DNA of 64,000 bases, from positions 1-64,000 of the forward strand of contig JAIPGO010000006.1 of NCBI GenBank assembly GCA_021736135.1, in the 5' to 3' direction. The stretch comes from Candidatus Cloacimonadota bacterium (GTDB lineage: Bacteria; Cloacimonadota; Cloacimonadia; Cloacimonadales; TCS61). Made by a program: the position numbers and the translations under genes. Positions 9,190 to 58,119 of this stretch are shown here, piece after piece; within the stretch, counting starts at the first letter, position 1; every line of letters starts with the position of its first letter. The notes beneath the pieces were generated by a model. It saw only the letters and a list, made by a program, of their open reading frames with translations. It did no database searches and was not told where the DNA came from.

Positions 9190-9281
9190 AAAGCACATAT
9201 CAGAGACAGCCACAACATAGCACAATCTAACAGAATAATGTTAGATTGTGCTATGTTGTGTCTGTCTCTGATATGTGCTTT
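9190..9281. repeat. 41-bp near-perfect inverted repeat (hairpin H1)
   Basis: Arms 9190-9230 and 9241-9281 are complementary except for one position (9210 against 9261), around a 10-base loop. It lies about 245 bases after the stop of the FG-GAP gene. It shares the ACAGCCACAACA...CACAAT arm sequence with the hairpin at 40.8 kb. It has no T-tract directly after it, so it is not a standard intrinsic terminator. Confidence 0.9.
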
Positions 9282-27379: not shown

Positions 27380-27490
27380 TAAAAATACCCATGCGTCTTA
27401 TTAACCAGTCACAACAAAGAGCATACCGGCAAAAAATGCGGATAAGTTCTTTGTAGTGACTGGTTCAAAGTTATAGTTCCGGTATTTTTA
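27380..27490. repeat. Structured hairpin H3 with outer closing stem
   Basis: Four nested helices are visible: outer 27380-27389/27481-27490, then AACCAGTCAC 27403-27412/27456-27465, ACAAAGA 27414-27420/27448-27454 and GCAT 27421-27424/27436-27439. Its arms resemble hairpin H2 at 40.8 kb, including CAGxCACAACA and GGCAAAAAATGC. The pair C-G in H2 (CAGCCAC/GTGGCTG) is T-A here (CAGTCAC/GTGACTG). It lies upstream of the hppA promoter. Confidence 0.8.
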
Positions 27491-40636: not shown

Positions 40637-40780
40637 TTCATAAGGTTCATAAATATTTAACATTTGCAACTATTTGTGATGATGATTCAGAGACTTCAAT
40701 AAATCTTTACAGTAAAACTCTTTTTCAGGGAATCTGGATTTCACTTTATCATTTTCTGTATTCAATAAGAACCATTAAAG

Positions 40781-40880
40781 AGCCTATAAGGTTGGTCTTT
40801 ACAGCCACAACAAGACACAATATGGCAAAAAAATGCTATATTGTGTTTTGTTGTGGCTGTTCATACTAACCTTATAGACT
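40781..40880. repeat. 47-bp imperfect inverted repeat (hairpin H2)
   Basis: Arms 40781-40827 and 40834-40880 match except for about eight positions, around a 6-A loop; pairing can be extended a further 15 bases or so on both sides. It shares ACAGCCACAACA...CACAAT with H1, and CAGxCACAACA plus GGCAAAAAA(A)TGC with H3. It lies about 215 bases after the ABC-F stop and 200 bases before the next promoter. Confidence 0.85.
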
Positions 40881-41082
40881 CCTTAAAGTCTCTTTATTCC
40901 CCCTGATAGATATTTCCCAAAGGTATTTTGAAAACCTTTCCATGTTTTTACGGGACATTTTCTAAAATATATTAAAGCAAAAAATCTGAAACAGAGTAGT
41001 GGTATTTAACCAAAAATTTACCGAACAGCATATTAGTAGAAATTCACCGATAAGGGTGTACTATTCATTTTGTAAATAAAAC

Positions 41083-50582: not shown

Positions 50583-51005
50583 TTAATCCAGTTTCCAGAA
50601 ATTGAGTCCACTTGATTCATCACGAAATCTCTCCAGCTCACCTTCGAAAATAGTTATAATCAATTCACAGGTGGCACTCACGGTCGCTGCATTCAGGTGT
50701 CCGCCGCGACAGCGAAGTTCCTCATCACCCAGAGTTACATGAACGTGCAGATATGGTTCACCAGCCATTTCGCTGATATTGCCGGCAAGATTCGTGATCT
50801 CAAAGCTGCCATAAAGAGTTGCTTTATTATACTTCTTCTCATTGACATCGAAATTACCCAGCGTCACTTGTGAGCAGGCACCAATTCCACTCACTTTTCC
50901 CAGCTTGATCCCGTATTTCGGGATTATTGCCAGAAGCTGCCCGATTATTTCCTCGCCGCGCTCCAGACGAATAAATATCTGTTCCCCTATTTTCTTATCT
51001 TTCAT
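50583..51005 (-). CDS. PPC/DUF296 (PD1-like) domain protein
   Basis: The ATG of MKDKKIGEQIF has aggag 6 bases upstream and is preferred over a start 13 codons earlier. The 140-residue single-domain protein has the PPC pattern: FIRLERGEEII, a core strand pair VSGIGACSQVTLGNF, and the metal-binding-like HVHVTLGDEE...CRGGHL. Members form trimers; plant versions carry AT-hooks, whereas free-standing bacterial ones have unclear roles, often tied to metal or DNA binding. There is no AT-hook here. The downstream Ntn-hydrolase-like gene begins 1 base after its stop (TAA-T-ATG), which implies coupled translation but does not reveal a shared pathway. Confidence 0.88.
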   Translation of the reverse strand: MKDKKIGEQIFIRLERGEEIIGQLLAIIPKYGIKLGKVSGIGACSQVTLGNFDVNEKKYNKATLYGSFEITNLAGNISEMAGEPYLHVHVTLGDEELRCRGGHLNAATVSATCELIITIFEGELERFRDESSGLNFWKLD

Positions 51006-51274
51006 TCTAACTCCTGTGGCAACATAGCTGCCAATCAGTATCACTTTGTCAAATAATTTAAGGCTTTTTCGTTTTTTTGGCAGTTATTTTACTCTTTATC
51101 ACCATTTCCTGATGCTGAATATTTGTTGCCCGTTTATAATAATTATTCCGAAAGTATTACGTGTTTATTTTTTTTCATGTATTCTCAGTAACATATTGGT
51201 GACCTAATTCCTGAATTTTGAATTGATTATTCATTTTTTTTTGTTATGACTAATAAAGCTGGCGAAAAATGAAT

Positions 51275-51303
51275 TTGACTACATTTTGCCATCTGTTTAA
51301 TGT
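51275..51303 (+). promoter_or_regulatory. Promoter of the candidate small RNA
   Basis: TTGACT at 51275-51280, a 17-base spacer and TAATGT at 51298-51303 predict a start near 51310, six bases before the outer helix of the candidate RNA. Confidence 0.5.
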
Positions 51304-51309
51304 TGATTC

Positions 51310-51462
51310 GTAGAGTAATTTCAGAGAGGAATTTCAGAAGAGGATTCAATGTTTAAGCTCCGGCTTAGCTTAAGTTCTTCTGAAAGTCTGAAATTATTTC
51401 TTATACTTTCTTTTATTGGAACTGGAAAAGGCTCTTACCGGCAGAGTCTTTTCCTTTTTTGT
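51310..51462 (+). ncRNA. Candidate small RNA with rod-like hairpin and terminator
   Basis: Three successive helices form one rod: 51316-51325 with 51387-51396 (10 bp), 51332-51341 with 51376-51385 (10 bp), and an apical TAAGC-TCCG-GCTTA stem at 51354-51358/51363-51367 with a stable UCCG (UNCG-class) tetraloop. Bulges are one-sided (6 to 1 and about 12 to 8 bases). A linker of 27 bases leads to an intrinsic terminator (51424-51460). The predicted length is about 150 bases. A 6S-like regulator, a leader of mscS, or a new sRNA are open options; the separate mscS promoter after the terminator favours an independent RNA. Confidence 0.55.
51424..51460 (+). terminator. Intrinsic terminator of the candidate RNA
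   Basis: GGAAAAGGCTCT at 51424-51435 pairs with AGAGTCTTTTCC at 51443-51454 (one G-T opposition) around TACCGGC, followed by TTTTTT at 51455-51460. It is upstream of mscS on the same strand, so it cannot end any annotated protein gene. Confidence 0.85.
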
Positions 51463-51521
51463 TTGACTAATCGTTATTTTTCATTACTATTTGGTTAAAA
51501 ATAAATATATGGAGGTACTTC

Positions 51522-52346
51522 ATGAATCTGGATAATTTCAATTTCCAGTTATATTGGGAAAAATTTATTGATCTGATGATCAGATACGGCGGTAAATTTG
51601 TGCTTGCTGTAATTATCTGGGTCGTAGGGCTATATATTATTAAGCTCGCTAACAAGGTCATTGGCAAGGGTATGGAACGATCCAATGTGGAAATAACTCT
51701 TAGGAAATTTATCATTTCACTTCTCAGCTTTGCCCTTAAATTCCTGCTTTTTATCACCTGTGCTTCCATAGTAGGCATCAAAATGACGGCTTTTGTTACT
51801 ATCCTTGGCGCAATGGGACTGGCGGTAGGTCTTTCATTGCAGGGTAGTCTCGCCAATTTTGCCGGGGGTGTGCTTATCAATTTCCTCAAACCCTATAAAA
51901 TTGGTGATTTCATTGAAACCGGGGGCATTATGGGTACTGTTAAAGAGATCAGCATCTTCAATACTATCCTGAATACACCGGATAATAAACGAATCATTCT
52001 GCCAAACAGCAATGTTTCCAATAATAATATCACAAATTATTCAGCAGAAAAACTGCGTCGTGTTGATTTTGTGTTCGGTGTTGATTATAATACTGATATC
52101 GAGAAAGCAAAGGGAATTATTGCTGCCGTAGCTGCCGAACACCCCAAAGCACTTGCTGATCCGGCGCCGTTTATCCGCACGGGCAAATTCGCTGCCAGTT
52201 CAATTGATATCACTGTGCGCATCTGGGCAGAAGCTGTAAATTACTGGGATTTGTATTTCGATATCATGGAACAGGTAAAGGCTGCCTTCGATAAGGCAGA
52301 AATCGTGATACCCTTTCAGCAGATGGACGTTAATCTTAAAAAATGA
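51522..52346 (+). CDS. mscS: MscS-type mechanosensitive channel
   Basis: The 274-residue protein has three membrane helices, with the pore-lining TM3 sequence ILGAMGLAVGLSLQGSLANF (about 91-110), rich in Gly/Ala as required for gating, then GGVLINFLKPYKIGDFIET and the beta-domain motif ILPNSNVSNNNITNYS. The C-terminal alpha/beta domain follows. It releases solutes on hypo-osmotic shock in the inner membrane. Its ribosome site is atggaggtac. It is followed 14 bases later by a DUF3078-like gene, so the two may share a transcript. Confidence 0.93.
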   Translation: MNLDNFNFQLYWEKFIDLMIRYGGKFVLAVIIWVVGLYIIKLANKVIGKGMERSNVEITLRKFIISLLSFALKFLLFITCASIVGIKMTAFVTILGAMGLAVGLSLQGSLANFAGGVLINFLKPYKIGDFIETGGIMGTVKEISIFNTILNTPDNKRIILPNSNVSNNNITNYSAEKLRRVDFVFGVDYNTDIEKAKGIIAAVAAEHPKALADPAPFIRTGKFAASSIDITVRIWAEAVNYWDLYFDIMEQVKAAFDKAEIVIPFQQMDVNLKK

Positions 52347-52360
52347 TCTAAGGAGTTTTT

Positions 52361-53200
52361 ATGAGAAAGACAGTAATTATTCTTTGCCTGCTGCTTACAC
52401 TCACTTTATTTGCAGAGGGCTGGGAAAAAACAGGAGATTTTAATCTTCTCCTCAGCCAGACTTATTATTCCGATAACTGGGATGGCACAGAAATGGGCAA
52501 TGTTAATTGGACAGCCAGCTTCAACTTCATTATGGAGAAGCAGCTTAACAAAACCCTATATGATAAAAATTCTCTCCAGCTGGCCTTCGGGCAAACTCAC
52601 TCACAGGTGCGAGATGCGATGAATGAACTATACTGGCAGAAACCTCTGATATCAACCGACTTGATCGATTATGAAAATATGCTCACCTTCACCCTTCAGA
52701 AATTCGTTGATCCTTTTGCTGCTTTCCGCTGGGAAAGCCGTTTCTATGACAATACTGTTCCGGATGATGATTTTTATCTTAATCCTAACATCCTCACGTT
52801 CAGTCTGGGTGCCAGGAAAATCCTGATAAATCAGGAAATACAGAATCTGGAAACTCGCCTGGGTGCCGCTTATAAGCAATTCCTTGATCAGCATGCCGAT
52901 ATTGATGACAATTATAATGCCGGTGCTGAAATGGTGCTTTCCTACTGGTACACATTCCCTTCAAAACTGGGTAAATTTGACAGTAAACTCCGCTTATACC
53001 AGGCTCTATTGACTTCCGAAGATAATGGCAGTGACTATTGGAAAGCAATGGATGTGGAATTTGTAAATAATCTCACTTTTAAACTCAGCTCTTATATTGG
53101 CATAAAATTCTATTTCGAAATGCTCTATGATAAAGAAATTGATGAAGATTTCCGCATTAAGGAAAACCTGGGAATTAATCTTTCCTATACTCTGTTTTAA
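52361..53200 (+). CDS. DUF3078-like outer-membrane protein
   Basis: The 279-residue protein has a signal peptide (about 1-18). The mature start GWEKTGDFNLLLSQTYYSDNW resembles DUF3078 members of the Bacteroidota, with the W..GG.F.L..SQ...SNW pattern and an extended beta-strand region throughout. It ends LGINLSYTLF with a terminal Phe, as expected for a beta-barrel. It probably sits in the outer membrane with an unknown function. It follows mscS by 14 bases and is convergent to a FG-GAP gene with a shared terminator between them. Confidence 0.75.
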   Translation: MRKTVIILCLLLTLTLFAEGWEKTGDFNLLLSQTYYSDNWDGTEMGNVNWTASFNFIMEKQLNKTLYDKNSLQLAFGQTHSQVRDAMNELYWQKPLISTDLIDYENMLTFTLQKFVDPFAAFRWESRFYDNTVPDDDFYLNPNILTFSLGARKILINQEIQNLETRLGAAYKQFLDQHADIDDNYNAGAEMVLSYWYTFPSKLGKFDSKLRLYQALLTSEDNGSDYWKAMDVEFVNNLTFKLSSYIGIKFYFEMLYDKEIDEDFRIKENLGINLSYTLF

Positions 53201-57716: not shown

Positions 57717-58119
57717 TCTATTCCTCCGATTATTTTCTTTATTAATCTAATTTCGCTAACATTTCACCTTCTTTCCAGTCAAGAAAAAAAACAGGCCACC
57801 TCCGATTTTACCGCTTCGAAAGTCTTGTATCGAGTATTTGTAATCTCTGATTTTCTCAAGTTATCAAACATCTTGTAGCATAGACGTCTCGTCTGTGGCT
57901 TTTTTGGAGACTGGAGGATTTTACTTTGATTTTCTGGAATATACCAGAGTGGTTCACAGACGGGACGTCTGTGCTACAGGTGAATAATAGTCTTATTATT
58001 TTTGCTCTTTTTAGTTGTAATCAAGGTTACTGACTACTTTCAAGTGAGGAAGATATTGACAGTAATGGTCGAGTGCAGAAATTAAATATTTCAGGATAAT
58101 TGAACCTAAAAGAGGATAA
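57717..58119. other. Intergenic region with a separated inverted repeat
   Basis: No gene is seen. The main structure is a 24-bp inverted repeat spaced by about 55 bases (57874-57978). A possible promoter for the exporter operon has TTGACA at 58056-58061 with an indistinct -10 near 58079-58087, and the ribosome site of the next gene is aagagga. Confidence 0.6.
57874..57978. repeat. 24-bp inverted repeat around a 55-base spacer
   Basis: TGTAGCATAGACGTCTCGTC (starting 57874, extending to 57897) pairs with GACGGGACGTCTGTGCTACA (57959-57978) and a few bases before it. The two mismatches are transitions that G-U pairing would tolerate. The GACGTCT core is itself palindromic. Confidence 0.85.

Follow-up and report, generated by a model that had tools for sequence, protein, structure and literature searches.

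Upstream of an mscS-type mechanosensitive channel gene in a Cloacimonadota genome lies a stretch that we tentatively read, with a probability of roughly 0.4, as a lineage-specific, stand-alone and intrinsically terminated candidate RNA of about 150 nt with a putative function. It occupies part of a 477-nt gap in the window, the whole 64,000-nt stretch of DNA analysed here, which belongs to contig C90 of a 4.1 Mb assembly of 98% completeness. This reading is supported by a strong terminator that is rare in shuffled sequence, a predicted hairpin with a z-score of about -3, a separate promoter-like site for mscS and an overlapping open reading frame (ORF) that does not look coding. Counting against it are the lack of relatives and of an Rfam match, an upstream promoter of chance level, the failure to detect Hfq, and the many equally good folds in the window. 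It is a reasonable small RNA candidate, unproven and ordinary in kind, whose one solid component is the terminator. Were it expressed, it would represent a small RNA gene restricted to a single lineage, and the literature searched contained no small RNA paper on this phylum; as it stands, it is a single unproven candidate with no known target. The features of the locus are the following.

50583..51044, minus strand: PCC-domain gene, divergent upstream neighbour (Pfam PF03479)
51045-51521: gap of 477 nt between the minus-strand PCC-domain gene and plus-strand mscS
51275..51303, plus strand: weak promoter-like pair TTGACT-17-TAATGT (read from the sequence, 8/12 consensus bases)
51309..51461, plus strand: putative transcript of ~150 nt (ends placed from promoter spacing and the T-run)
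51314..51398, plus strand: long hairpin with outer helix, inner helix and small apical hairpin (predicted fold, pair probabilities)
51349..51498, plus strand: 49-aa ORF overlapping hairpin and terminator, judged not coding
51399..51423, plus strand: U-rich linker from hairpin to terminator, predicted mostly single-stranded (centroid fold)
51424..51461, plus strand: intrinsic terminator with 12-bp stem, 7-nt loop and T-run (fold and sequence statistics)
51463..51490, plus strand: promoter-like pair TTGACT-16-TACTAT (promoter scan, 9/12)
51522..52346, plus strand: mscS-type mechanosensitive channel gene, downstream neighbour (Pfam PF00924, PF21082)

The intrinsic terminator proposed in a first-pass annotation of this DNA is present and goes beyond chance. 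Its stem (51424-51435/51443-51454) is followed by TTTTTTG, it folds on its own with -16.4 kcal/mol (z -3.8), and it is the strongest plus-strand terminator among the gaps of the window. By criteria set after the site was seen, dinucleotide shuffling of the 477-nt gap produced an equally strong plus-strand terminator in 8 of 1000 cases, and one with a promoter-like site no more than 220 nt upstream in a single case of 1000. Since the PCC gene on its 5' side runs on the minus strand and mscS lies downstream on the plus strand, there is no upstream plus-strand protein gene that the terminator could serve. Directly after it, at 51463-51468, comes the second TTGACT box that the annotation had listed, as part of the TTGACT-16-TACTAT pair ahead of mscS, which to judge from its sequence probably serves that gene. 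A terminator with no plus-strand protein gene before it and a promoter-like site for mscS immediately behind it speaks for a short transcript of its own rather than a leader.

The putative upstream promoter is no better than chance level. Its boxes, TTGACT (51275-51280) and TAATGT (51298-51303) with a 17-nt spacer, are found where they had been annotated, but as a promoter the pair is weak: only 3 of 6 bases of the -10 box agree with the consensus, the pair fell below the threshold of the promoter scan and so went unreported by it, and a site of equal quality occurred in 54% of shuffled gaps. The site before mscS scores higher (9/12 versus 8/12).

The hairpin between this site and the terminator is predicted to fold better than chance, and the folded stretch ahead of the terminator spans some 110 bases. 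The stacked helices and UCCG tetraloop described at first are all there, as an outer helix (51314-51325/51387-51398), an inner helix (51332-51342/51375-51385) and an apical AAGC-UCCG-GCUU (51355-51366). Pair probabilities mostly exceed 0.9 in the two long helices but are about 0.4-0.65 in the apical part, where the UCCG hairpin (~0.65) competes with a UUUAAGC/GCUUAAG pairing. The segment 51309-51402 folds with a z-score of -3.0 and is among the best 0.9% of 94-nt windows of its G+C content (91 of 10652 equal or better); dozens of other spots in the window fold equally well or better. For the putative transcript as a whole, 51309..51461, the minimum free energy is -46.1 kcal/mol (z -3.4 versus dinucleotide shuffles).

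Long, nearly perfect palindromes form a dispersed family in this genome; the candidate shares no sequence with them, and its membership in that family was rejected. Copies lie in the window at 9190-9281 and 40777-40884 and elsewhere at G000:C4:36362-36411, C4:74452-74501, C69:16551-16600, C98:35504-35553 and C147:36950-36999 (loci L146-L151), with minimum free energies of -71 to -103 kcal/mol including flanks. The core reads CACAACAAGGCACAATCTAAC-loop-GTTAGATTGTGCCTTGTTGTG, and in several copies the arms consist of ~11-base units (TATAAGGAGGG / CCCTCCTTATA). The exact pattern occurs at 7 sites in the genome and a reversed control pattern at 0, and from copy to copy the stem shows compensating changes. 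At 27397-27470 of the window, a shorter and imperfect palindrome (CCAGTCACAACAAAGAG...) may be a distant member, and a long imperfect one (TGTAGCATAGACGTCTCGTCTGTG ... CACAGACGGGACGTCTGTGCTACAGG) lies at 57868-57982, in another divergent gap.

On the stand-alone reading, RNA polymerase would start near 51310, make the long hairpin first and then the U-rich linker, and end transcription at the intrinsic terminator around 51460, so that the RNA would measure roughly 150 nt; the promoter directly behind the terminator would drive mscS independently. Should the RNA act at all, the likeliest way would be base pairing with mRNA through the exposed U/C-rich linker or a hairpin loop, without Hfq. A search for Hfq (PF17209) was negative in the 98%-complete genome and positive in 5 of 14 control genomes; an Hfq-type mechanism is therefore unlikely and the candidate RNA probably Hfq-independent. 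In a literature search of titles and abstracts, no paper reported a small RNA acting on mscS in such an arrangement.

Searches for relatives gave nothing that would place the candidate in a wider family. Rfam searches at gathering and relaxed thresholds yielded nothing credible, and no family, 6S and riboswitches included, was matched, in keeping with the initial impression that no known family could be recognised. A 6S identity was rejected, as the candidate fails the RF00013 model and another 6S RNA of the genome lies at G000:C88:56723-56898 (75.4 bits). Only short chance matches came from blastn against the own genome and 58 relatives, from a DNA search of plasmids and phages and from a scan of IMG/VR for exact patterns. 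A covariance model, derived from the candidate sequence alone and run on the 59 genomes with stricter filters that may lose weak matches, found no relative, the best foreign match scoring 26 bits (E 0.018 as calculated for one of the 59 genomes). The matches inspected were rejected as generic A/U-rich stretches ending in a hairpin or terminator. Also rejected was a weak hit upstream of mscS in G003 (L023:2326-2429), which is on the other strand than mscS and covers mainly the terminator part. In a blastn simulation, with settings similar to but not identical with those of the genome search, a copy at 75% identity was recovered 35 times out of 40 and one at 70% 25 times out of 40. As mscS itself shares 73-74% DNA identity with its closest orthologues, an RNA conserved like mscS would probably, not certainly, have shown up. 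The source genome is the single representative of its genus in the comparison set.

The first-pass annotation had named a lack of conservation in relatives as one of the results that would refute its proposal of a stand-alone unit; the anatomy fits that proposal, but such a lack is what the own genome and 58 related genomes show, and the promoter is of chance level. Young small RNAs can be without conservation, which is thus a supporting rather than a strictly defining property.

Gene order accounts for the missing counterparts and at the same time strengthens a close rival. The closest mscS genes (76-78%) belong to three species of one genus, G004, G019 and G026; named records with the closest mscS are Candidatus Stygibacter frigidus and another Cloacimonadota assembly. 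In all three species sbcD, on the opposite strand, precedes mscS, and the gap between them, of about 155 nt and 77-82% identical from species to species, is about 50% identical to the gap in the window, which amounts to no similarity. In G019 the PCC gene and an AAT-like partner adjoin tsaB, and the source genome carries sbcD and tsaB on contigs other than C90, with different neighbours. The junction of PCC and mscS was found in no relative examined, which explains why orthologous sequence is missing and makes leftover sequence a serious rival. On this somewhat less probable reading the gap would be debris of a rearrangement, its junction formed in this lineage, its promoter-like site due to chance, its hairpin a functionless quasi-palindrome, and its terminator either left from a lost plus-strand gene or retained because it shields mscS from stray transcription. 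The gene orders just described, the chance-level promoter and the lack of conservation all suit such an origin; however, no remnant of a gene could be recognised there, the terminator is undamaged and has its full T-run, and the order of hairpin and then terminator is typical of small RNA genes. A narrower version of the small RNA reading, in which a young gene arose or was captured at the rearrangement junction and, with Hfq undetected, pairs with its targets without a known chaperone, appears improbable.

Several observations concern the neighbouring genes. In G004 (L132, around 1200-1620) the genes for PCC and the AAT-like partner appear fragmented: the match to PCC is confined to 41 residues, in a reading frame that contains a stop. 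The sequence AAATTATTTGACA lies 5' of the PCC gene at 51047-51059 of the window (minus strand) and also at the PCC gene of G019 (L108:1959-1971), and is probably a conserved -35 region. This sharing suggests that PCC probably starts at the ATG at 51005 rather than the GTG at 51044; its relatives start at MK(D/S)K. A 279-aa protein without Pfam match, encoded at 52361-53200, follows mscS here and in several relatives, and appears to be a conserved mscS partner of a family unassigned by Pfam.

Less likely than either the stand-alone RNA or debris, and unlikely in itself, is a 5' leader of mscS in which transcription from the upstream promoter would be attenuated at the terminator until a signal allowed read-through. 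A structured leader with a terminator shortly before the gene, here 62 nt before the start codon, is the usual layout, and when the nascent RNA ends at 51436-51441, before the 3' arm of the terminator exists, the 5' arm is predicted to pair upstream in an antiterminator-like manner (~0.4-0.5 for most bases). Against a leader, the terminator stem pairs at 0.93-1.0 once the 3' arm is made, a promoter-like site for mscS alone lies behind the terminator, relatives show nothing comparable ahead of the gene and no riboswitch family matches. That the 49-aa ORF codes for a leader peptide or some other small protein is very improbable, since its ATG with an AGAGGA ribosome-binding site and its stop 23 nt 5' of the mscS start codon are set against a codon score of -0.25 (below every stretch tested of the neighbouring genes, at 0.40 +/- 0.12 per codon), a length equalled in 31% of shuffled gaps, a course through the terminator, and no convincing relatives, the matches being no better than E 0.02 and mostly broken by internal stops. 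The earlier statement that the unit lies 'without any protein gene' was nearly right: an ORF is there, but it is not coding-like.

Among known systems, riboswitches and attenuator leaders share with the candidate a structured stretch and a terminator shortly before a gene; the candidate differs in the separate promoter-like site after the terminator, in matching no Rfam family and in having no counterpart before mscS in relatives. 6S RNA (RF00013) is similar in its stand-alone layout, long hairpin and length, but its model is unmatched and the genome's own 6S lies elsewhere. From intergenic trans-acting bacterial small RNAs the candidate differs in not being conserved in relatives, in a genome where Hfq went undetected and in a promoter of chance level, whereas it resembles them in its promoter-like site, hairpin, U-rich linker and terminator, in containing no coding ORF and in its place in a gap between protein genes.
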